Assembly: GCF_030068475.1 (NCBI RefSeq)
Contig: NZ_JAQOSP010000070.1
Location: 1 to 37,992 of the forward strand
DNA from: Roseofilum acuticapitatum BLCC-M154
Lineage (GTDB): Bacteria; Cyanobacteriota; Cyanobacteriia; Cyanobacteriales; Desertifilaceae
DNA length: 37,992 bases
Direction of reading: 5' to 3'
Shown: in pieces, positions 5,629-33,252 of the stretch
Layout of the letters: the number at the start of each line of letters is the position of its first letter
How positions within the stretch are numbered: position 1 is the first letter of the stretch
Notes under the pieces: model-generated
What the model saw: the letters and a program-made list of their open reading frames with translations, nothing else
What the model was told of the DNA's origin: nothing
Database searches by the model: none
Position numbers and translations under genes: made by a program

Positions 5629-6143
5629 TGCAGATGATCTATATTCCTGGGTTGTTGAAGTGCCCGGAGGGAAGACTGAGGATTGAGGTGGATCAGTATT
5701 TGGAGGGTTTGGATTCTTTGATGCCGGTTCAGGGCTGGATGAAGATGATTCACCAAGGGAGTTATCTGGAGGTGAAGGCGATCGCCGAGACTATCATAAC
5801 TCTGAAGTGCGATCGCTGTCTGCAACAGTATAATCATCGACTGCGGGCGAAGGCAAAGGAGTTGATTTGGCTCGATCCCAATGCGGATACCCTCAATGAT
5901 AATCTGCCCTTGGAGCGGGAAGTGCCCTTAGAGGATTTGGTGGAAACCCTCTCGCCCCAAGGCCATTTTGACCCGGAAACTTGGCTCTATGAGCAGCTTT
6001 GTCTACGGCTTCCCCATCGGCAGTTATGTGATAAAAATTGTCCGGGAATTGAGGTGAACGAGGAAGCGGCTGAAAGTGCGGATGCTGGTGTAGATGCCCG
6101 TTGGTCAGCTTTGGCGAGTCTTAAGGATCAATTTCCGAAATAA
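5625..6143 (+). CDS. YceD/DUF177 family protein
   Basis: This 172-residue protein belongs to the YceD/DUF177 family, linked in plants and bacteria to 23S rRNA or large-subunit accumulation. Cysteine pairs that may bind metal are seen at C62/C65 (LKCDRCLQQYNHRL) and in QLCDKNCPGIEVNE. The typical end DARWSALASLKDQ is present. The start overlaps the khpB stop as ATGA; a second ATG lies three bases downstream. It closes the rpmH-to-DUF177 run. The next gene is on the other strand and marks the start of a compositionally different island. Confidence 0.92.
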   Translation: MMQMIYIPGLLKCPEGRLRIEVDQYLEGLDSLMPVQGWMKMIHQGSYLEVKAIAETIITLKCDRCLQQYNHRLRAKAKELIWLDPNADTLNDNLPLEREVPLEDLVETLSPQGHFDPETWLYEQLCLRLPHRQLCDKNCPGIEVNEEAAESADAGVDARWSALASLKDQFPK

Positions 6144-6267
6144 TCTCTTCTCTAGTGTTTAAGAGCAGGGAATAACAGTATAGTCGCCAATATCATCTAT
6201 TAAATAATTGTTATTATCGTCGAGTATAAGTGTAAAGCCTCTATATTTACAAGTATTAAACTTACTT

Positions 6268-7785
6268 TTACAGTCCACATCGATCTATCACTTCTTGATA
6301 AAAATCCTCCATTCTTACTGGCCCAACTTTGTCAATACAACCGCCCAAATAACCACCAGGTGGACAATGTAAAGACATTTCCATCTTGCAAGCTTTGGTA
6401 TCTTTATATCCTGTCGAACAAGGTGTTGGTAAATATCCTTTTGGAGCCGAAAAGCTAAAATTCATATTTTCATAATGCTTATCCGATATAAAATAAGAAC
6501 CTTCTATATGCCAGTTTAAATAATTTTTGAATTTTTTATATTTATCTTTAAAGTTTTTATATCTTTGATTGTGCGTGTATGGTGTACCTTTCATTGCAGG
6601 GAAATTTTTCCATATTTTATACTGAACACTCCACCCAAATTTACCTTTAGAATAAAATCTCCATAATTGGTCTATCTTACGAATAGTAGGGCAAGGAAGA
6701 TGAGCAAAACTAGAATTCGGCAATTTCTTACCAAAGGGCCAAAGTTTTCCAGCTTTATCAATCAAAATTTGTGATGTTTCTCGATCTGCTGCTTGCCATC
6801 GTCCTTTAGCTAATAATTTCTCAAGGCGATTGGAAACATTAACTTCTTCAGATTTCTGCAAAGCAATCTCCGTATATTCTGTATAAGTTTCAACCCTTTC
6901 TTGAGCAGCTTTGAAGTTTTTGTTCTCAGGCGAAACAAAAGACATCAATCTAGAAGACTTTTTCCACATTGAAGCAATGTCATTCCATTCTTCAGAGGTT
7001 TGTGCTTCTTGGCCTGCTCTAACAGCCTCTTGTGCAATTTCAATACCTTTAACATAGGGATCAGAAAATACAGATATTAGATATATCGATATGTGATTAT
7101 GACTATAATATCCAAATACAGTTATTAAAGTAATTAATGTTATAGTCCAAAAACAACCCAGTCTTCTGAAATAATGAAAAAAACCTAAAAACCGATTAGT
7201 AGAATATGTTGTGTTACGTCGATTATTACGATCAGTTGATAACTGAGTATTGATTCTTGCATTCCTTTCAGGTTGCATTCTGATAGTAGAATACCTTGTA
7301 TTACGTCGATTATTACTATCAGTTAATCCTTGAATCGGATGATTCTGTCTTGAAACTATCCGAAGAGTAGTATTACTTCTATTAGAAGATACAGCTCGCG
7401 CACGAACAGCCTGCCGTCCCTGGCAATTTCGGCAAAACTGCATCTCTTGCCAACTTTCTAATTTCATAATTGCACCGCAGCTAGTACACTTCATCCCTTC
7501 ATCACCAGGTTGGAATGAACTCGAATCCCAAGCACAAGTTGTACGATCAGCATTAAATGTTTCCATACTTGGAACTATCTGAAGAGTAGTATTACTTCTA
7601 TTAGAAGATACAGCTCGAACATGAATAGCCTGCCGTCCCTGGCAATTTCGGCAAAACTGCATCTCTTGCCAACTTTCTAATTTCATAATTGCGCCGCAGC
7701 TAGTACACTTCATCCCTTCATCACCAGGTTGAAATGAACTCGAATCCCAAGCGCATCTTGTACGATCAGCATTAAATGTTTCCAT
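6268..7785 (-). CDS. Membrane protein with two RING-like zinc modules and a GUN4 domain
   Basis: This 505-residue protein is the last gene of the ubiquitin-like operon. Residues 1-73 and 74-144 are near-identical copies of a zinc module with C11, C27, C30, C45, C48 and W39 (second copy C84, C100, C103, C118, C121). The spacing fits a prokaryotic RING-like domain whose first metal site is lost (D14, K35 and S38 where ligands would be). A low-complexity Asn/Arg linker (about 145-198) and one membrane segment (about 211-240) follow. A helical region (about 245-315) precedes a GUN4 domain (from about 321: WQAADRETSQIL, IDQLWRFYSKGKFGWSVQYK). GUN4 binds tetrapyrroles in chlorophyll synthesis, but GUN4 domains also sit in signalling proteins. 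It could be an E3-like or receptor part of the system. A possible frameshift affects its end (see findings). Confidence 0.85.
   Translation of the reverse strand: METFNADRTRCAWDSSSFQPGDEGMKCTSCGAIMKLESWQEMQFCRNCQGRQAIHVRAVSSNRSNTTLQIVPSMETFNADRTTCAWDSSSFQPGDEGMKCTSCGAIMKLESWQEMQFCRNCQGRQAVRARAVSSNRSNTTLRIVSRQNHPIQGLTDSNNRRNTRYSTIRMQPERNARINTQLSTDRNNRRNTTYSTNRFLGFFHYFRRLGCFWTITLITLITVFGYYSHNHISIYLISVFSDPYVKGIEIAQEAVRAGQEAQTSEEWNDIASMWKKSSRLMSFVSPENKNFKAAQERVETYTEYTEIALQKSEEVNVSNRLEKLLAKGRWQAADRETSQILIDKAGKLWPFGKKLPNSSFAHLPCPTIRKIDQLWRFYSKGKFGWSVQYKIWKNFPAMKGTPYTHNQRYKNFKDKYKKFKNYLNWHIEGSYFISDKHYENMNFSFSAPKGYLPTPCSTGYKDTKACKMEMSLHCPPGGYLGGCIDKVGPVRMEDFYQEVIDRCGL
7354..7785 (-). repeat. 219-bp tandem duplication within the zinc-module gene
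   Basis: The first 219 bases of the gene (7567-7785) are repeated at once in frame (7354-7566) with only scattered differences. Both copies begin with the same METFNADRT start, so the ATG at 7564-7566 is a copy of the original start codon and could serve as an internal start. The near-identity at DNA level, including silent positions, indicates a recent duplication. Confidence 0.93.
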
Positions 7786-7830
7786 AGAAGAAATCTGATA
7801 AAAATAAGAAAAGCAATCAAAACAAAAAAA

Positions 7831-8478
7831 CTATCTTGTCATTTTTCTTGTCACTCTCTTTTTTTTAGTAACGGCACTATTTTCTGAAATAATAGATTTA
7901 CTATTAGCGATCTCGTTTTGTTTCCCCCATTTTATTGACTGTGGGTCATTTTTTTTATTTTGAACTTGTTCTCGCTGAGTTTGTTTTGTCCACTTAACCT
8001 TTGATGATTTAGAGTTTGTATTTTTACAATATGAATTATCTGGGTCTAACAGACCAGTTGGAAGACCATAATTTATTCCTTGTGAAATAACTTTATGTAC
8101 CTCATTTATTTCGTTAGGATTGATTATAAAAATTTGCGACTTATTTAATTCAGCTAAAACCGACTTGCTAAACTTACTCGTTGTTCCATCAGGTGTAGCA
8201 AAAATAAGTTTTAGTCTTTCTTGTTTTGCTAAACTTACTAACCTTCTTGCTTGTTCAGCATCATTAAATTGACCTGATTTAATTTCTAAAATTGCAAATT
8301 CCGATCCTCCTCTGTCAGAAATTATACGATCTATTTCTGTGTCTTTGTGAAAATCGTCAGTATAACGACGTTCTGAGCGATCAGAAATGTCAACATCGGC
8401 TTGCCACAGTAAATTCTCGACAAGCAGTTCAAAAAAACTCCCTTTTTCTTTATTAATTGGCCCCTGTCTTCCCACCAT
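7831..8478 (-). CDS. PD-(D/E)XK nuclease-like protein
   Basis: This 215-residue protein has the layout of a PD-(D/E)XK fold: E17 in GSFFELLVENLL, D50 in DTEIDRIIS, and E65-x-K67 in FAILEIKSG. The next strand/helix (LKLIFATPDG) also fits. Such domains cleave DNA in restriction and recombination enzymes, or are kept as inactive folds. The tail (about 147-215) is polar and carries two copies of a W-centred motif (KVKWTKQ at about 161, SIKWGKQ at about 181) and a very basic end. It lies four bases after the ATPase gene and 45 before the GUN4 gene. I do not recognise a named family; nuclease activity is an inference. Confidence 0.8.
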   Translation of the reverse strand: MVGRQGPINKEKGSFFELLVENLLWQADVDISDRSERRYTDDFHKDTEIDRIISDRGGSEFAILEIKSGQFNDAEQARRLVSLAKQERLKLIFATPDGTTSKFSKSVLAELNKSQIFIINPNEINEVHKVISQGINYGLPTGLLDPDNSYCKNTNSKSSKVKWTKQTQREQVQNKKNDPQSIKWGKQNEIANSKSIISENSAVTKKKRVTRKMTR

Positions 8479-8482
8479 AAAA

Positions 8483-10213
8483 TTATCTCCTCCATCTAAT
8501 TCTAGAGTGATTTACTTGGGAACTTAAATCTGTAGAATTTTCTGGTTGCTGCCTTCTATTATGCCAAACAACTCTTTGTTCGGTTGGAGTCAAATTACTG
8601 TTAGTTTGTGAGCTAATACCACTCCATCTAGCTCTTGAAACCTGAGAAGGCTGCCATATACTGTAAGGCTCTATTACTCTCTGATAGTCAACTAAAAAAG
8701 GTTTGCGACAAGCAGTTCTAGAATGAACGACGGCTATATGCTCATTTCCTACAGGATATTGTATCTCCCTGCTATCTAGTACAGGTGCAGATTCACGCCA
8801 ATTTTCATAACGTTCTCCCTCAGCATGAGTCCTGAACCAAGGATAATTATCTTGTGAATTGGCTTCGTGATACCTCCGTCTTCTCAAATTTTGGTTGCGA
8901 TTTCCCAAACGATGACTCAGCCAATCAGCCGCGCCAGAACCTACCCCCCTACAAAGAACAACAGTATCGAAATTTTCCATGACCTGCTCTCGATATTCTG
9001 GGTTAATTTGCTCCAAACTTTGAGCAGCAATAACAATACTTCCTCTAGCTGAACGTGCTACGCTAGTAAACTCGGCAATATTGACCTGTTCCTGAATTCT
9101 AGGAAACTCATCAATCCAAAAAACAATTCCTTGATCGCTACCATTTTGTGTCCATCGTTCGTAAAAAATAGTCATTAAAATATCAATCAAAGCAGATGAT
9201 ATCTTTTGAGAAATATCACGTCCTGCTAACTCAGCACCAATGACTAATAAAGTTGGCTGTCGCTGAATATCACGCAGTAAAATATCGCTGTGCCCTGTCA
9301 CTTGTTCAAAGTTAGGCCAACCAAAAAAGTTTATCGCATCTTGAATCCCCCAAGTAAAAGCATTGGCTCCATTTTCACTTTCTTGAATTAATCTTAATTG
9401 AGATTGAATCGATGCTTGTAATCTAGCATCCTGACAAAACCCTAAAAGCTGATTTAGAGTTTCAACAGGGTTTTCTGCAATTTGATAAATATGAGTGAGG
9501 TTTGCAGCATCACCAAAAATCTGCTTAATCAACATTATCCACTGCGCCATCCAAGAGATATCTCTCATGGAAAACTGCCGATTGTCCCCTAAATGCTCAG
9601 TATTGCCATACAAGGATTTAGCTAAAACTTGAGCATCTTGTATAGAGTTTATATTGTCGAGTAAGTTGATACTATGGCTGCGGCTAACTTCTTGGGGAAG
9701 GGTACTCCAATAAATAACCCGTACACCTTTTTGTTCCGCATAATGTCCCAGTTTGTCGATTAGGGAACCTCCCTTAACATCAATTACGATATTAGACAAG
9801 CCTGCATCAATAGCAGATTTAATACCTGGAATAATAAACCCTTCTGTTTTGCCTGACCCAGGTGGCCCAATAAGCGCTAAATTTTTGTAAATAGATTTTT
9901 CTTGCAGCCAAATCTCTTGATTTGACTTGACTTTTCCTCCGGCTATTTTTAAAAATTTTCCAATATTGATAACAGGTGGAGATGCATATCTATCTGGATG
10001 TTTAAGAATTCGATAATTATTAGAATTAGAACCTTGTGACTGAAGAACATCAGTAATTTCATTAAGTGTAGCTGTTCCTGAATAATCTCTTAAGTCTCTC
10101 AGGTGTATATCTGTAGGGGGTACAACCTCATTAGGCCCAATAATTGTCTCACGACCACCAAAGAGGTTTCTAAAAGCCCATCCTAAATTTTCAAGTGAGT
10201 TTTGCCAAGACAT
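8483..10213 (-). CDS. VirD4/TraG-like ATPase (type IV coupling protein family), no membrane anchor
   Basis: This 576-residue P-loop ATPase has Walker A GPPGSGKT at residues 116-123, a strand NIVIDVKGGSL, Walker B IVFWIDEFPRI (D368, E369), the region ARSARGSIVIAAQSLEQ with sensor Q398, and a RGVGSGAADWLSHRLG segment. These fit the VirD4/TraG/TraD coupling ATPases, which form hexamers that move DNA or proteins. The usual N-terminal membrane helices are absent: the protein starts MSWQNSLENLGWAFRNLFGG, so it is probably cytosolic. No relaxase or other secretion gene is nearby. The C-terminal tail is Ser/Asn/Gln-rich and carries RARWSG (W530), RVVWHNRR (W550) and RIRWRR (W574). It lies five bases after the JAB gene. 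Confidence 0.92.
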   Translation of the reverse strand: MSWQNSLENLGWAFRNLFGGRETIIGPNEVVPPTDIHLRDLRDYSGTATLNEITDVLQSQGSNSNNYRILKHPDRYASPPVINIGKFLKIAGGKVKSNQEIWLQEKSIYKNLALIGPPGSGKTEGFIIPGIKSAIDAGLSNIVIDVKGGSLIDKLGHYAEQKGVRVIYWSTLPQEVSRSHSINLLDNINSIQDAQVLAKSLYGNTEHLGDNRQFSMRDISWMAQWIMLIKQIFGDAANLTHIYQIAENPVETLNQLLGFCQDARLQASIQSQLRLIQESENGANAFTWGIQDAINFFGWPNFEQVTGHSDILLRDIQRQPTLLVIGAELAGRDISQKISSALIDILMTIFYERWTQNGSDQGIVFWIDEFPRIQEQVNIAEFTSVARSARGSIVIAAQSLEQINPEYREQVMENFDTVVLCRGVGSGAADWLSHRLGNRNQNLRRRRYHEANSQDNYPWFRTHAEGERYENWRESAPVLDSREIQYPVGNEHIAVVHSRTACRKPFLVDYQRVIEPYSIWQPSQVSRARWSGISSQTNSNLTPTEQRVVWHNRRQQPENSTDLSSQVNHSRIRWRR

Positions 10214-10218
10214 TATAA

Positions 10219-10968
10219 TTAATTTTTATAAAATAAAAAAAATGTGATCTTTAAAATACTTAAACAACAGCCTAATCTGTCATGTAGTGATGATTCTTTA
10301 CTGGTATTATGAGAAGTGTTTTCATTAGTTTGTTTTACTACTGGGTTGTCTTCAGATAAAGATGGTTTATTTTGATCAGGCTTGAGTGTTTCAGACTCAG
10401 ATGCTTTAGCTTGAGGTTCTAAAGTCTTGCACGAACTCATTGGTTGACCTTTAGATCCACAAAAAAATCCGATCTCATCTCGAATTGGATCGTAGACAAC
10501 AGCAATATGCCAAGGTTGGTTAAAACAGTCTTCTTGAGTCTTTAAATCAACGCCTGATAGAAAGACACCAAAATTAGGATGAGAATGATACCAACCCACA
10601 ATCTGTGTTTGGGGATAAGACTCTTCTTGTTCTTTAAGGATTGCTGGCCAACAATGAGGAGTAAAACGAAATGTTGAGCAATTTCCTATTGTCGTAGGTG
10701 CTGCAATCGCCCCAGTTATTACTGTGTTATGGATATTGCTTGTATTTGATACATTTCCTACTAAAATACCTCCCGTTTCTTTGCTGGTATCTTCTGATAA
10801 GTGAGTTGTTAGCTTATGGATAGCAGATTCAGATACATAAAGCTGAAGATTTTCATGTAAAAAAGATTGATATTGGCTTGATTCCAAACAGGAGAAAGAA
10901 ACATTATTTTGGCTTCGGTTTGCGATCTCTTGTCTCTGAGACCGCTTATGCCATCGGACTTTAGTCAT
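10219..10968 (-). CDS. JAB/JAMM (MPN+) metallopeptidase, predicted deconjugase
   Basis: This 249-residue protein carries a complete JAMM zinc site: E64 in ETGGILVG, H128-S-H130-P in WYHSHPNFG, and S138-x2-D141 in SGVDLKTQ. JAMM enzymes cut isopeptide or peptide bonds after ubiquitin-like proteins, so this one may trim the Ubl precursor or remove it from targets. The N-terminus begins MTKVRWHKRSQ, a copy of the W-centred motif also found in the E2 tail. After the catalytic domain (about 40-175) a polar linker leads to a hydrophobic end (CCLSILKITFFLFYKN), which may touch a membrane. The start overlaps the E2 stop by four bases (ATGA), so the two are likely coupled in translation. Confidence 0.93.
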   Translation of the reverse strand: MTKVRWHKRSQRQEIANRSQNNVSFSCLESSQYQSFLHENLQLYVSESAIHKLTTHLSEDTSKETGGILVGNVSNTSNIHNTVITGAIAAPTTIGNCSTFRFTPHCWPAILKEQEESYPQTQIVGWYHSHPNFGVFLSGVDLKTQEDCFNQPWHIAVVYDPIRDEIGFFCGSKGQPMSSCKTLEPQAKASESETLKPDQNKPSLSEDNPVVKQTNENTSHNTSKESSLHDRLGCCLSILKITFFLFYKN

Positions 10969-11492
10969 TGCTTTTTATGCCACTTAACTTTTCTATGTTC
11001 CGTAGGTTGGTTAGGGGATTGTTTTTTTAAAGGAAACCAACCTTTAGATTTATTCCTATTGTACCAATTCTTAGCAGAGCGATTAGCTTCATCTCCAAAA
11101 TCAGTATTTGCATACTGAATCATTGTGATTAATCTCAAAACCAAAACATTAAGAGGTTGATTTTCAGTCATATTGTTCCCATAAATACAAGTCCATCCAC
11201 CTGAACCTACATTCGGGTGAAAAATTGGAGTTTTGAAGGTTACTGTGGGGATACCTTCTCTCACTGGCTCTGGATATCTGTTGGTAAAGTTTGAAATTTC
11301 CAAAATATGCTGGGTGGTATAAATTGGAGAATCATTAGAATTAATCGATTTTACCCCTACAACATCAGATATCTGAATGACATATTTTCGAGGCTCAGGT
11401 ATATACTCCAAAAGCTTAATATTTTTATTGGAGACACACAGTCTTAATAACCCTTGATAATCACTTTCTAATCTTCTATCACGAACTGACAT
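10965..11492 (-). CDS. E2-like ubiquitin-conjugating enzyme (UBC fold)
   Basis: This 175-residue protein is an E2-like enzyme. The core is seen as PTVTFKTPIFHPNV (residues 82-95) followed by GSGGWTCIYG, with the predicted catalytic cysteine C102. An HPN motif eight residues before the cysteine is the classic E2 arrangement. A helix NVLVLRLITMIQYAN and an ANRSAKNWYN helix follow, as in E2s. The likely role is to accept the Ubl from the E1 as a thioester and pass it to a target amine. The last residues, RKVKWHKKQ, form the shared W-centred motif. The gene begins two bases after the Ubl gene. Confidence 0.93.
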   Translation of the reverse strand: MSVRDRRLESDYQGLLRLCVSNKNIKLLEYIPEPRKYVIQISDVVGVKSINSNDSPIYTTQHILEISNFTNRYPEPVREGIPTVTFKTPIFHPNVGSGGWTCIYGNNMTENQPLNVLVLRLITMIQYANTDFGDEANRSAKNWYNRNKSKGWFPLKKQSPNQPTEHRKVKWHKKQ

Positions 11493-11494
11493 AT

Positions 11495-11752
11495 TCAGGC
11501 TCCCCCTACCTCTGGTACAAATGAAAAAACTGCATTCTTCGGAATACTTGCGCTTCCAAATGTCTCATTATCACTCTGGATTTCACCCGTTTTTTCTAAT
11601 ATGAGTGTACTGTTGCGAGTTTTGGGAACACCGAAAATCTCATGGCATTCTTTACGAAACTCTCCCAATTGCAAATCTAAGGGCACAGTAGCTTCTTCCT
11701 CTTTTCCCGCATTGGGATACTTAACAAGTACAGTGATTTCTGCAATTGCCAT
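11495..11752 (-). CDS. Ubiquitin-like modifier with C-terminal GGA
   Basis: This 85-residue protein fits a beta-grasp ubiquitin-like fold: strand ITVLVKYPNAG, strand EEATVPLD, helix FRKECHEIFG, strand TLILEKTGEI, and end NAVFSFVPEVGGA. The C-terminal G83-G84-A85 is the conspicuous feature. Ubiquitin-like proteins are activated at a terminal glycine, so removal of A85 (perhaps by the JAB enzyme) would expose a Gly-Gly end. It lies between the E1 and E2 genes. Alternatives are a sulfur-carrier protein or a YukD/EsaB-like protein; the E2 and JAB neighbours favour a protein modifier. Confidence 0.88.
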   Translation of the reverse strand: MAIAEITVLVKYPNAGKEEEATVPLDLQLGEFRKECHEIFGVPKTRNSTLILEKTGEIQSDNETFGSASIPKNAVFSFVPEVGGA

Positions 11753-11765
11753 AATAAAAATCTCC

Positions 11766-12920
11766 TTAGTTCAAAGTCTGATCTGTTAATTCTACAAAGG
11801 TAAGTTGACCATTCTGTTTAAATTGAACGATCTCTTTATCCGCCATCCAAAAATATCGCAAGGGAAATCCAGCTTCTTCAGAATCCTTATAGATTTTGAA
11901 ATTCTTTGTCGGTGTTCTATAATCATAATTACACTTTGGACACCAAGATTGACTATATTTAACTTCCTGTACAGGCATTGCAATTAGTTCAATATGCCCA
12001 CATTGCGGACAAGTCAATTTAAAGACAAAATCGAAAGGAAGTTGTAATTCCCACTGATCATTCAGCCCTAACATAGCGGCTACTTGACTTGCCGTGTTAT
12101 CTAAGCTGGCTGAATGAGGAGAAAAATTTTTACAATCGTTTATTAATTCATGGTCTGGGCATTCTTCATTTAACTTAAACTTACCAACCTTAAAACCCAT
12201 TGGAAAGCTAACCGGCAGAAATAATTGTGTTCCAGGTTGGAACTTTTGCTCTCCCAGGATAACTTGTACAGCTATTTCTACTTGGTAAGCTGCAATAACA
12301 GAGGATGTCATAATGCTTGTAGCAATTACTGGCTCTTTATAGTCATCTTTCAAATACCCATCTGGACAAGAACGCCTTTCATTAATTTGCTCCCAATGAG
12401 TGCTATTCATTTTACAACGGTAGCAAGCAGTCTCAGGCACTCGTGGATTGAAAAAAGCAACGTTGCCCATTGCATAATCTATCCCACCATCGATCCAAGG
12501 AGTTCCTGCAAAATAGGATCTTTCATTTAGAGTTCTTCTTGCCCCAAAACTGTCTACGCAGCCAAAGCATACATCCATTTCCCGGAGCAAGCCACGGCCA
12601 AAGGCAAACTCTAACTTGCCAAGAATAGAATATACTTGGGTATCTGGGTTAAGTTCTTTAACTCGTTCGGCTACCACCTCCGCTTTATGTCTGCCTATGT
12701 CTGATTCGCGAAATAAAACAGATCGCGTCAAATTATGAATTTCGATAGTATCGTAGTCCACAACCCAAATATGACCAACTCCCAGCAGCGCCAAGTTCTT
12801 CAAAACCTCATTACCCAGTGCGCCACAGCCGAAGACAGCTACCTTCGCCTGGGCCAGTTTTTCTTGGCTCCAGTTCGGGATTAGTTTTAATCGCTTATAC
12901 TTATCTTCAGGTATTGACAT
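11766..12920 (-). CDS. E1-like ThiF/MoeB/UBA-family activating enzyme
   Basis: This 384-residue adenylating enzyme is the first gene of the operon. The nucleotide loop is GCGALG (31-36), D55 ends the next strand (WVVDYD), and NLTR (63-66) with arginine, K79 (GRHKAE) and D123 (CVDSFGARR) complete the E1 active site. C166/C169 (CYRC) belong to the zinc site region, and C185 in the loop RRSCPDGY is a candidate for the thioester cysteine. A second zinc ribbon (C304, C307, C327, C330) lies in the C-terminal extension, which is unusual for a short ThiF protein and may bind the E2 or Ubl. The message has a good ribosome site (AAAGGAG, 10 bases before ATG). Role: ATP-dependent activation of the Ubl. 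Confidence 0.95.
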   Translation of the reverse strand: MSIPEDKYKRLKLIPNWSQEKLAQAKVAVFGCGALGNEVLKNLALLGVGHIWVVDYDTIEIHNLTRSVLFRESDIGRHKAEVVAERVKELNPDTQVYSILGKLEFAFGRGLLREMDVCFGCVDSFGARRTLNERSYFAGTPWIDGGIDYAMGNVAFFNPRVPETACYRCKMNSTHWEQINERRSCPDGYLKDDYKEPVIATSIMTSSVIAAYQVEIAVQVILGEQKFQPGTQLFLPVSFPMGFKVGKFKLNEECPDHELINDCKNFSPHSASLDNTASQVAAMLGLNDQWELQLPFDFVFKLTCPQCGHIELIAMPVQEVKYSQSWCPKCNYDYRTPTKNFKIYKDSEEAGFPLRYFWMADKEIVQFKQNGQLTFVELTDQTLN

Positions 12921-12957
12921 TCTACAGTTCTCCTTTAAACTGCCCTTATCAAGCGCA

Positions 12958-12975
12958 CTAGGCGGCCTGACCTAG
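12958..12975. promoter_or_regulatory. Inverted repeat in the divergent control region
   Basis: CTAGG and CCTAG form an inverted repeat with an 8-base spacer (CGGCCTGA), lying 38 bases upstream of the E1 start codon. It falls where a transcript leader or operator of the operon would be. It may be a binding site for the divergent HTH protein; there is no direct proof. Confidence 0.35.
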
Positions 12976-13026
12976 ACTGAATCTGGTTACTGTATTTGAT
13001 TTTCCTTAATAATACCCTGACCGATC

Positions 13027-13080
13027 TCAGGATTTGGCTGATGTGCGTCAGGATTTATGTTAGAATTCCGTCAGGAATTT
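13027..13080 (+). promoter_or_regulatory. Three direct repeats TCAGGATTT at the HTH gene promoter
   Basis: TCAGGATTT occurs at 13027-13035 and 13048-13056, and as TCAGGAATTT at 13071-13080. The spacing is 21 and 23 bases, about two helical turns, so the copies face the same side of the DNA. A possible -10 box, TAGAAT, lies at 13061-13066 between copies 2 and 3. This layout fits an autoregulatory operator shared with the divergent ubiquitin-like operon. Confidence 0.5.
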
Positions 13081-13096
13081 ACAGGGTACTGAGACT

Positions 13097-13567
13097 ATGC
13101 CACCTGCTGACGAGCAATTTACTGAAGCTGCTAACTCCTGGGACTTGAAAACGCTGTACTCGGATTTAGCGGCGGTTAAGGGAAAACCGCTAACCCCCGT
13201 TGAGAAGCTGCACTTACGGGGGTTACTTTGTGGCTATAGTCCTGCGGAAATGGCTGAAAAGCTACAAAAGAACTCGAAGGGGGTGGAAACGGATCTATGC
13301 GCTACGATTTATAAGTATGTTAAGAATTTTGTGGGTAAAGGTACTGAGAAAATAGACAATTGGAGAACGATTAGTCAATGGATGGAGGAAGCAGGGTACA
13401 AAGAAGGAGCGGGATCTCAGACTAACCTCCAGCAGGACTATCCTGATTCTAGTCAGGTCAATGTGACGAATATCAAATTTGAAAATAATCAAATCAAGAT
13501 CGGTGTATATTTACAATTAACTGTACCTCTACCTCCAGAAGTTTCGTTAGTAGAGAATGAAGAGTAA
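13097..13567 (+). CDS. Small HTH-domain protein, divergent from the Ub-like operon
   Basis: This 156-residue protein has an N-terminal helix-turn-helix region (about residues 30-75: LTPVEKLHLRGLLCGYSPAE, then MAEKLQKNSKGVETDLCATI). It resembles the HTH modules that cyanobacteria place at the front of STAND/NACHT and vWA-MoxR conflict proteins. A short middle segment (NWRTISQWMEEAGY) and a beta-rich end (VNVTNIKFENNQIKIGVYLQ) follow; I do not recognise that end. It is alone on the plus strand, 176 bases from the E1 gene, with repeats in its promoter. The likely role is regulator or sensor of the operon. A weak convergent terminator follows it. Confidence 0.82.
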   Translation: MPPADEQFTEAANSWDLKTLYSDLAAVKGKPLTPVEKLHLRGLLCGYSPAEMAEKLQKNSKGVETDLCATIYKYVKNFVGKGTEKIDNWRTISQWMEEAGYKEGAGSQTNLQQDYPDSSQVNVTNIKFENNQIKIGVYLQLTVPLPPEVSLVENEE

Positions 13568-13578
13568 ATGAAGTCACT

Positions 13579-13600
13579 GATTCTTATAAACCTAAGAGTC
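13579..13600. terminator. Weak convergent hairpin
   Basis: GATTCTTA (13579-13586) pairs with TAAGAGTC (13593-13600) around a six-base loop, with one G-T pair. It lies between the converging HTH and DUF928 genes and overlaps the DUF928 stop. No long T-run follows, so its terminator role is uncertain. Confidence 0.35.
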
Positions 13601-31917: not shown

Positions 31918-33252
31918 ATGGCCCGTCTCAATCATAAGGCATATACTATTCTTGTGCGGGAACTTGAGCGCTGTGTAGGCAACGATCCCCTAAATGCTCC
32001 TCAAAAAATATTAGTCCTCAAACGACTGGAGCGATTACGGCAACAAACAGGCGATCCAGTTTCGGCACAACAGCTACAGGAAACGATTCAGGATCTGATC
32101 CCAGAGTTCTCTAATAAAGCGATTCAGCAAGCGGCAAAAGCGAATCAACCCTCTTCAGGAATCTGGGGATATTTATCTTGGGGGGTTGTCGGTTTGGCCG
32201 GATGCGCGGGTTTAGTATACATCTTGAATCTCCCTTACCCGATGATTCGCTGGCCAGTAGCGAAAACCATACCCTTGGTGCTGCTGCCCAGTTATATGAA
32301 AATGGATTATGATTATCGGGGAGCGATCGCCAATGTAGAAAAATCCGATCAGCTCATTAACCAAGCCACCAGTGCCGCCGATATCGAGTTAGGAGCCGAA
32401 AAAGTTGCCCTAGCGCAAAAACACCTGGATGGTTTACCCGTGTGGTTTTTAGGCTATTATCCCCAGCGCTACTGTACCCTGTTTAGTTGTAGTTGGCAGT
32501 TTACCCTAGATGAATATCAGGTCGCTCGCAAACAGGTTGCCCGCATGGAAGCCAAGGTTTTCCAGGAAAATAATGCCTTAACCCTTTTGCAAGAAGGACA
32601 GAGCCAAATCGAAGCAGCAAAAGGTCAATATCAACAGGCTAACTCCGAAAGCGATAAACAGGAAGCCATCTCCCTCTGGCAAACCGGACTCGATAAACTC
32701 GCTCAGATTCCTCCCCAAACTGTTGCCGGACGCATGTCTGAGCCTCAGATTAAAGCCTATGAGCGCGATTTTCAAAACGTCTCTGGACGCAGTGCCGGAA
32801 CCCAGAAAACCGATACCCTCATCCAAGCGGCTGCTCAGTATGGCATGGCAGCGGCCCAAATGTCCCAAAATCCACCCCATCCTGAAGCTCAATGGCAAGA
32901 AATTATCCGGTTATGGGATCAGGGCAGTCAGCAGTTGGAACGAGTCACCGATGATAACCCAGCCTATGTGGAAGCCCAGAAAAAACTAGCTGAATATCGC
33001 AAAAATGCGGCTATGGCGCGGATTCGTCTAGAAAATGAACAAAATTCTATGCAAGCTCTGAATCAGGCTAAGAGTCAAATTACGACTTGGCAACAGTTAG
33101 CGACTTCTACGACCAATAAAGGAGTATTGGTTAGTGGTCTGCAAAGGATTATTTATGACTTAGATCGAGTAAAATCGGGTACAACAGCTACTGAGGAAGC
33201 GCGATCGCTCCGGCAATTTGCCGAAGCGAAAATGCAGGAACTTAGTCAGTAA
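31918..33252 (+). CDS. Membrane-anchored helical-repeat protein, unknown function
   Basis: This 444-residue protein has a helical N-terminus (about 1-75), one membrane segment near 83-101 (WGVVGLAGCAGLVYILNLPY) and a long helical part with TPR-like periodicity (QEAISLWQTGLDKLAQIPPQ; WQEIIRLWDQGSQQLERV). Such W-x-x-A/G-L-x-x-L patterns recur in cyanobacterial membrane proteins. A short hydrophobic region with cysteines (YCTLFSCSW) lies near 190. No enzyme motif is seen. It is divergent from the histidine kinase and may be a scaffold. Confidence 0.85.
   Translation: MARLNHKAYTILVRELERCVGNDPLNAPQKILVLKRLERLRQQTGDPVSAQQLQETIQDLIPEFSNKAIQQAAKANQPSSGIWGYLSWGVVGLAGCAGLVYILNLPYPMIRWPVAKTIPLVLLPSYMKMDYDYRGAIANVEKSDQLINQATSAADIELGAEKVALAQKHLDGLPVWFLGYYPQRYCTLFSCSWQFTLDEYQVARKQVARMEAKVFQENNALTLLQEGQSQIEAAKGQYQQANSESDKQEAISLWQTGLDKLAQIPPQTVAGRMSEPQIKAYERDFQNVSGRSAGTQKTDTLIQAAAQYGMAAAQMSQNPPHPEAQWQEIIRLWDQGSQQLERVTDDNPAYVEAQKKLAEYRKNAAMARIRLENEQNSMQALNQAKSQITTWQQLATSTTNKGVLVSGLQRIIYDLDRVKSGTTATEEARSLRQFAEAKMQELSQ

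Follow-up and report, generated by a model that had tools for sequence, protein, structure and literature searches.

What would a ubiquitin-like conjugation operon do with a conjugation-type motor ATPase, a nuclease-like protein and a zinc-finger protein? The question is raised by a 37,992-nt stretch of Roseofilum acuticapitatum BLCC-M154 (contig NZ_JAQOSP010000070.1, positions 1 to 37,992; hereafter the window, G000:C70 within a 5.2-Mb draft genome). Seven open reading frames (ORFs) on its minus strand, at 6268-12920, encode an E1-like enzyme, a ubiquitin-like protein (Ubl), an E2-like enzyme, a JAB isopeptidase, a VirD4-like ATPase and two further proteins, here called gene 6 and gene 7. A first-pass annotation had described them as one tight operon, and our ORF check returned the same spacings (13, 2, -4, 5, 4 and 45 bases). 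It had also proposed that tagging is coupled to a motor and a nuclease. The answer to which we lean, at slightly less than an even chance, is that the locus is a dedicated Ubl conjugation system assembled by a common docking peptide, a short tryptophan motif through which motor and effector are wired to the Ubl machinery.

Eleven further cyanobacterial loci carry a close relative of the ATPase: L004 (genome G033), L005 (Crinalium plasmid pCRI9333.03), L006 (Microseira), L007 (Microcoleus), L008 (an Oscillatoriales metagenome-assembled genome, MAG), L009 (Oscillatoria princeps), L010 (Dulcicalothrix), L011 (a Coleofasciculus MAG), L012 (Geitlerinema), L013 (a Trichodesmium MAG) and L014 (an Oscillatoria MAG). 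The order E1, Ubl (one or two genes), E2 (two in L008), JAB, ATPase recurs in all 11 loci with readable upstream sequence, the window included; L014, whose contig begins inside the ATPase, was excluded from this count, and in L010 and L013 the E1 runs into the contig end and is short. Because the order is the same in every readable locus, the E1-Ubl-E2-JAB-ATPase grouping is not due to chance, and with several cyanobacterial genera represented, the notion of chance neighbours beside an ordinary Ubl operon has a negligible probability. The seven genes do not form a conserved unit, as only this five-gene block is constant. Gene 6 is a PD-(D/E)XK-like protein in 3 of 12 loci (window, L006, L007) and a different protein of about 220 aa, termed WYK, in eight (L004, L005, L008-L012, L014). 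A GUN4 domain occurs in gene 7 of only two of the 12 (window and L010), a count in which the short members L005:22433-22798 and L014:1779-2237 were left out of the scan and the L013 contig has no gene 7. The motor part of the earlier proposal therefore stands, the nuclease and GUN4 lose their place as defining parts, and GUN4 was rejected as the core idea. Locus L006 (7027-13359) is a mosaic, with an ATPase, nuclease and gene 7 near those of the window and an E2, JAB and Ubl of another lineage.

The ATPase is rare. Close relatives were found in 2 of 386 phylum-wide genomes, the window's own counted, and in none of 38 other relatives; a third phylum genome (G326) holds a relative at 28 percent identity in a different setting. 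This distant VirD4-like ATPase (L003, G326:C180, 1498-3069) has a hydrophobic N-terminus and belongs to another operon, adjoining what by eye is a P-loop GTPase-like gene. One of 72,556 plasmid records matched over most of the ATPase length, and six matched weakly (22-26 percent). A scan of an 84,980-genome collection, which started from two peptide patterns and was not exhaustive, gave nine loci with strong matches (64-82 percent identity) and a single weak one. The E2 profile matched more widely, in 13 of the 386 genomes from the phylum and in 30 of 388 from the order; its matches below 1e-70, in nine order genomes, correspond to the window's own and eight ATPase-class loci (400-base identity with L005-L009 and L011-L013). 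No ATPase-profile match was present in the weaker E2 loci examined (10 + 15 stretches, some closely related, with G091 and G662 left out).

Several operon proteins share a motif of the form hydrophobic-x-W-[R/x]-[D/E], found at the E2 C-terminus, the JAB N-terminus, the ATPase tail, in gene 6 and in some zinc proteins. LNWRD-like repeats were first spotted by eye in the tails and counted afterwards, in a strict form ([LIV]xW[RHK][DEK]) and a looser form ([LIV]xW[RHKQ]). The strict form occurs in 11/11 JABs, 9/12 ATPases (24 copies), 8/8 WYK proteins (14 copies), one of the three PD-(D/E)XK-like proteins and 5 of 20 proteins labelled gene 7. Those 20 take in window:31918-33252 and L008:17681-18670, which are not gene 7 and match no Pfam family below 0.001 (the former) or 0.05 (the latter). 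The strict form is absent from the 11 E1 and 15 Ubl proteins of the ATPase class, and from 112 other ORFs of at least 150 aa (32,904 aa) in the same loci, which were called mechanically and are not confirmed genes. Only 1 of 12 E2 proteins has the strict form because E2 chains mostly stop at R; the looser form is present in eight. In the ATPases, the looser form reaches 35 copies versus a shuffled mean of 9.2, and of its 14 background matches, one is the likely gene 6 of L013. The E2 ends with the motif in 11/11 ATPase-class loci (W in ten, F in L006), and a copy lies ahead of the JAMM core in 11/11 JABs. Full-length ATPase tails bear two to five copies, variants counted, which suggests multivalent reading. 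In favour of docking, the variants change in concert: a basic form is common to E2, JAB, ATPase and gene 6 of the window and L007, and in L006 W is exchanged for F in both E2 (NLIFR) and JAB (QLEFRD). That the motif is itself the Ubl acceptor site is unlikely, since many copies have no lysine.

The motif extends to operons that have no match to the ATPase. Sixteen sister loci (L029, L030, L074-L086, L091) encode Ubl-conjugation genes, and in these the tryptophan motif stands at the end of 16/16 E2 proteins and precedes the JAMM core in 14/14 JABs found, mostly near N-termini whose start codons are unconfirmed (at residue 145 in L086). Accessory genes were selected on strand and on distance, up to 4.3 kb downstream of E2; 27 of 43 carry [LIV]xWx[DE], 19 of them twice or more, versus 9 of 117 other ORFs (Fisher 2.7e-12). 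The set includes 'GIEPDLCI' proteins of 195 aa, small membrane proteins whose RING-like matches are weak, a TPR protein and a protein kinase (L076:10452-11405, Pkinase 1.6e-39) with two C-terminal tryptophan motifs, which is a candidate swapped effector. A distant family (L031-L034, L038) has the motif on 5/5 E2 and 5/5 JAB proteins, and each of L031-L034 has a RING-like gene near E1 with the motif, or a variant of it, at its N-terminus. A further class (L035-L037, L087) has it on 0/4 E2 proteins and 0/4 JAB N-termini, with two interior matches near residue 130. The E2 and JAB rows of this class comparison rest on loose patterns that admit F and P and give some chance matches, also in the further class; the W forms were read from the listed matches. 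More broadly, the motif may be a transferable wiring code of modular cyanobacterial Ubl systems, a generalization that we hold with a little under even confidence: proteins that gain it (motor, nuclease, WYK, kinase, TPR or membrane zinc protein) would become Ubl clients or readers, and the VirD4-like ATPase would be a Ubl-directed motor.

Since E2 and JAB bear the motif even in classes that lack the ATPase, gene 6 or gene 7, the receptor for it probably lies within the E1/Ubl/E2/JAB core. We favour the Ubl, because E2 and JAB both handle it and repeated motifs suit a repeated ligand. The motif might instead bind E1, or a fold on E2 or JAB, and just hold the enzymes together as a complex, with a motor that is not steered by the tag. 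The absence of the motif from both E1 and Ubl of the ATPase class accords with E1 as receptor, as does the presence of E1 in every motif-bearing class; nevertheless, E2 and JAB act on Ubl, and the repeats of the ATPase tail would suit a ligand that is itself repeated more readily than one site on E1. We regard E1 binding as rather unlikely. With Ubl as the most likely common receptor, JAB would trim the Ubl to its glycine, E1 would activate it and E2 would carry it. The membrane zinc protein may serve as ligase or adaptor, with its C-terminal part (GUN4, pilin-like or other) as a sensor. Tagging at the membrane would then collect on the tagged target both the motor, whose two to five motifs could read clustered or chained Ubl, and the effector with its two motifs. 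The motor would pull or pump the target or its DNA, the effector, nuclease-like in the window, would act on the target, and JAB could double as the release enzyme. The likely setting is conflict with phages or plasmids, with a putative role in defence or plasmid conflict, considering the patchy distribution, the plasmid home, the DNA methylase and RecQ genes near L004 and the methyltransferase and HNH genes on the L005 plasmid.

Several observations weigh against a Ubl-reading docking motif and a conflict role. The window, which belongs to the branch that departs most from the motif, keeps the strict form just in E2 and JAB; the variants of its ATPase and gene 6 (VVWHN, IRWRR, VKWTK and IKWGK) are looser. 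In L006, the ATPase and nuclease keep the basic W form even though E2, JAB and Ubl come from another lineage, which contradicts strict co-evolution of motif and core. L008 has no GG-ended Ubl, its two copies ending in ETS and GYLAK. The sister loci include near-duplicates, several of them nearly identical, so that their counts are not independent. Several sister and distant E1 proteins match [LIV]xWx[DE] (a LIDWWDQ-type N-terminus and others); the LIDWWDQ-type match aligns with a conserved E1 segment and is taken as unrelated to the putative docking motif. Finally, PADLOC returned no system for this gene set, and no ATPase relative was found among viral contigs.

The ATPase itself belongs to PF02534 (61.9 bits versus a cut-off of 20.1) and is single-copy in the window's genome. 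The Walker A motif GxxxxGKT is present in 11/11 ATPases that reach that part; a WIDE motif was also seen. Coupling proteins of type IV secretion systems (T4SS) typically have an N-terminal membrane anchor and neighbouring T4SS genes. Here, no hydrophobic N-terminal segment was found in the three ATPases checked, and no T4SS gene was recognised beside the operon, neither in the annotated L005 stretch nor by eye in the other flanks, most of which had no Pfam scan. These two results, along with the chromosomal-type genes adjoining the window operon, speak against a plasmid transfer or maintenance module, in which the ATPase would couple DNA or protein, gene 6, with a basic signal at its C-terminus, would be a substrate and regulation would fall to the Ubl genes. 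Such a module would account for the match to T4SS coupling families, for one locus on a plasmid typed as mobilizable (MOBP; L005) and another beside ParA- and ParB-type genes (L010), and for the basic end shared by two unrelated kinds of gene 6; on balance, we consider it unlikely. The link to plasmids suggested by the first-pass annotation is clear for pCRI9333.03 and likely for L010; it does not extend to the window, where the operon lies beside YidC/60KD_IMP and YceD genes.

Gene 6, the putative effector, is exchanged between loci. The PD-(D/E)XK-like and WYK kinds have unrelated N-terminal parts and similar tails with tryptophan motifs and a basic end, TRKMTR, which is letter-identical in the window, L005 and L008 and looser in others. 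The L013 protein is of a third kind (232 aa) with two LNWQ[ED] motifs. Candidate nuclease residues (E17, EID50, E65-I-K67) are common to 3/3 PD-(D/E)XK-like sequences, which are themselves 72-73 percent identical, and the window protein has sub-threshold Pfam matches to DUF234/UPF0102. The motif tail of one gene-6 model had a predicted local distance difference test (pLDDT) score below 50, as expected for a flexible tail. No fold was assigned to the WYK protein, whose model had a mean pLDDT of 69 and no PDB match below E 0.29. The WYK N-terminal domain is also present in L049:4062-4574 and L050:7930-8220, away from Ubl matches in the stretch and without strict tryptophan motifs.

The zinc-finger gene 7 is present in one to three copies in 11 of 12 loci, the short L013 contig having none. 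Its C-terminal part changes: GUN4 in the window and L010, a region resembling type IV pilin (Pilin_GH) that follows the zinc finger in L007:12431-14041 and L008:12475-14124, and NTF2- or SPOR-like by eye in other loci, with no significant Pfam match. The RING-like character claimed earlier is plausible; the Prok-RING_1 match of the window protein (0.0018) is below the Pfam cut-off, and only three cysteines are invariant across 18 sequences. The structural model was confident mainly in the zinc repeats (pLDDT mostly 94-97), and the best fold match, to LIM domains (E 0.04), was not significant. The hydrophobic segment, which most of these proteins have (hydropathy 1.53-3.35), is pronounced in the short members; in others, the window's among them (1.58 at residue 209), it is weak. 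In four short members, a C-terminal hydrophobic helix is preceded by tryptophan motifs: L005, L009 and L014 have two each, and L012 has one plus FKWRE. The system could alternatively serve membrane proteostasis or a stress response: gene 7 would sense membrane or envelope proteins, the Ubl machinery would tag them and the ATPase would extract them, with no role in defence. The sensor-like variable part and the motif-bearing protein kinase of a sister operon would suit this role; the patchy distribution (2/386), the cargo-like insertion and the nuclease-like effector fit conflict systems better, making it improbable. A PADLOC match to PD-T4-6 was discounted, as it overlaps the GUN4 domain. Elsewhere in the window, the protein at 31918-33252 noted above matches the gene-7 profile (7.7e-24).

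The intact key residues that the first-pass annotation reported for the conjugation core were confirmed by Pfam, relatives' profiles and conserved-residue checks. The window E1 has a single ThiF match (at 11-231), and the relatives' alignment contains GCGALGN, the invariant cysteine and the CxxC pairs. The window Ubl alone had no match in the Pfam scan; the profile of 15 relatives matched ubiquilin (5.7e-6) and single ubiquitins (approximately 0.002-0.007) in the PDB, its best listed value, 2.5e-30, coming from a nine-fold ubiquitin chain whose single repeats score only 12 bits each. The catalytic motif HPN..C of E2 is intact, and the JAMM residues HxH..S..D are kept in 11/11 JABs. E1, Ubl, a cysteine E2 and a JAMM protease thus stand in one operon, the combination that characterizes prokaryotic conjugation operons. 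L008:8484-9005 is a second E2 copy without the cysteine of HPN..C (HPNVYHNGLIDLG), perhaps a pseudo-E2 partner by analogy with UEV/Mms2. Tandem Ubl pairs occur in which the first gene has no GG end (L005:17686-17934, L007:8137-8418, L008:7359-7604). Phage matches to E1 comprised 23 records; all of the 20 listed are ThiF-like, with 37-45 percent coverage save two at 65 percent.

Short peptides, often repeated in the flexible tails of ligases, proteases and effectors, are familiar from eukaryotes as SUMO-interacting motifs, LC3-interacting regions or Atg8-interacting motifs (LIR/AIM) and ubiquitin-interacting motifs. The tryptophan motif resembles these as a short repeated tail peptide; it differs in sequence, and its binding to Ubl is a proposal. 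Type II cyclic-oligonucleotide-based anti-phage signalling systems (CBASS) are defined by a cGAS/DncV-like nucleotidyltransferase in the operon, and none was present among the eight proteins scanned. In FtsH-ternary conflict systems, tri-ligase operons encode JAB, E1, a RING-type E3 and a Ubl-E2 protein and are served by EAD1 adaptors (Kaur et al. 2020, PMC7159879). A full prokaryotic E1/E2/RING-like/JAB set is common to both, as is the idea of an adaptor, present on Ubl and effector alike, that would bring the effector to the tagged target. In contrast to their Ubl-E2 fusion with EAD1, Ubl and E2 are separate genes here, the common element is a short motif rather than a domain and is carried by E2, JAB and effectors, with none on the Ubl, and a VirD4-like ATPase is present, VirD4 being absent from the text of PMC7159879. 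Operon types 6a-6e also encode Ubl, E1, E2 and JAB together, in mobile clusters (Iyer et al. 2006, PMC1779556); however, the type 6d E2 has no classical histidine and comes with an alpha-helical extra protein, and type 6e has a polyUbl and a JAB-E1 fusion, unlike the separate genes and single Ubl of the window, while neither VirD4 nor TraG appears in that text. Bil (BilABCD) has the same four-gene Ubl, E1, E2, JAB core; BilA, however, contains a pair of Ubl domains and BilD a pair of adenylation domains, one inactive and one active, whereas both are single in the window (PMC11354881). Bub operons are, like that of the window, Ubl conjugation operons with a regulator gene nearby, although the divergent helix-turn-helix (HTH)-like gene here, a candidate regulator, is another one (EMBO J 2026, PMC13373217).

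The core is a known kind of prokaryotic Ubl operon, and the ATPase, the swapped gene 6 and the motif appear to be the new part; no description of the ATPase with the Ubl gene set, of the exchanged gene 6 or of the motif was found in the open-licence literature searched. To our knowledge, little has been established on how bacterial Ubl effectors would find the tag. Partners could be predicted from sequence by such a short motif, which makes the question testable with peptides and offers a search handle for unrecognised effectors. If our reading is correct, bacteria too have, or evolved, Ubl reading through short linear motifs, the tryptophan motif would be a bacterial counterpart of SUMO- or Atg8-interacting motifs, and a VirD4-like motor tied to Ubl tagging would represent a new use of a conjugation-type ATPase. 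Coordinates of the window features are collected in Table 1.

Table 1. Features of the operon and its inserted segment in the window.
Feature	Coordinates	Strand	Basis
E1, ThiF/MoeB-type adenylating enzyme, C-terminal CxxC pairs, 384 aa	11766..12920	-	Pfam ThiF 1e-48; invariant C185
Ubl, 85 aa, end EVGGA	11495..11752	-	Profile of 15 relatives vs PDB
E2, HPN motif and cysteine, 175 aa	10965..11492	-	UQ_con 6.4e-5, below family cut-off; PDB UBE2A 1.5e-8 (profile)
Tryptophan motif VKWHK (basic variant) near E2 C-terminus	10974..10997	-	Motif reading
JAB/JAMM isopeptidase, 249 aa	10219..10968	-	Pfam JAB 2.5e-11; HxH..S..D
Tryptophan motif VRWHK (basic variant), JAB N-terminus	10945..10965	-	Motif reading
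VirD4/TraG-like ATPase, 576 aa, without N-terminal membrane helix	8483..10213	-	T4SS-DNA_transf 6.8e-17, TraG-D_C 1.4e-10 (Pfam); Walker motifs; hydropathy
Looser tryptophan motif VVWHN, ATPase tail	8558..8581	-	Motif reading
Looser tryptophan motif IRWRR, ATPase C-terminus	8486..8506	-	Motif reading
Gene 6 (215 aa), PD-(D/E)XK-like domain plus a tail carrying two looser tryptophan motifs and the basic end RVTRKMTR	7831..8478	-	Comparison of 3 sequences
Looser tryptophan motif VKWTK, gene 6	7981..8004	-	Motif reading
Looser tryptophan motif IKWGK, gene 6	7918..7941	-	Motif reading
Gene 7 (505 aa), two RING/treble-clef-like zinc-finger repeats, a weak membrane segment and a GUN4 domain	6268..7785	-	Pfam GUN4 8.8e-26; modelled zinc repeats
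HTH-like small gene, candidate operon regulator, divergent	13097..13567	+	Relatives before E1 in several loci
Inserted segment, operon and HTH-like gene	6134..13590	.	blastn vs same-genus stretches

The operon and the HTH-like gene lie at a junction; neither that gene nor the tryptophan motif appears in the first-pass annotation. In blastn comparisons, matches to same-genus relatives stop at 6133-6136 (left block; G390, G388, G387) and restart at 13591 (right block; G390, G388), and the segment between has no match in the stretches of three of the five same-genus relatives. Both blocks are conserved in relatives in separate places, and hence this is not a simple empty site. The HTH-like gene, likely the operon regulator, has no Pfam match and a weak NCBIfam match to BglJ (0.029); its relatives stand divergently ahead of E1 in L007, L008 and the sister or further-class loci L075, L078, L037 and L087. 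Ahead of E1, L006 and L009 have a different HTH-like gene, judged by eye; in L005 that place is taken by a replication gene plus a small hypothetical gene. Among other surroundings, genes for a C-5 DNA methylase and a RecQ helicase stand about 15 kb or less from the L004 operon, the remaining flanks being judged by eye; DNA methyltransferase and HNH genes are on the L005 plasmid, and an HNH gene lies near L008.

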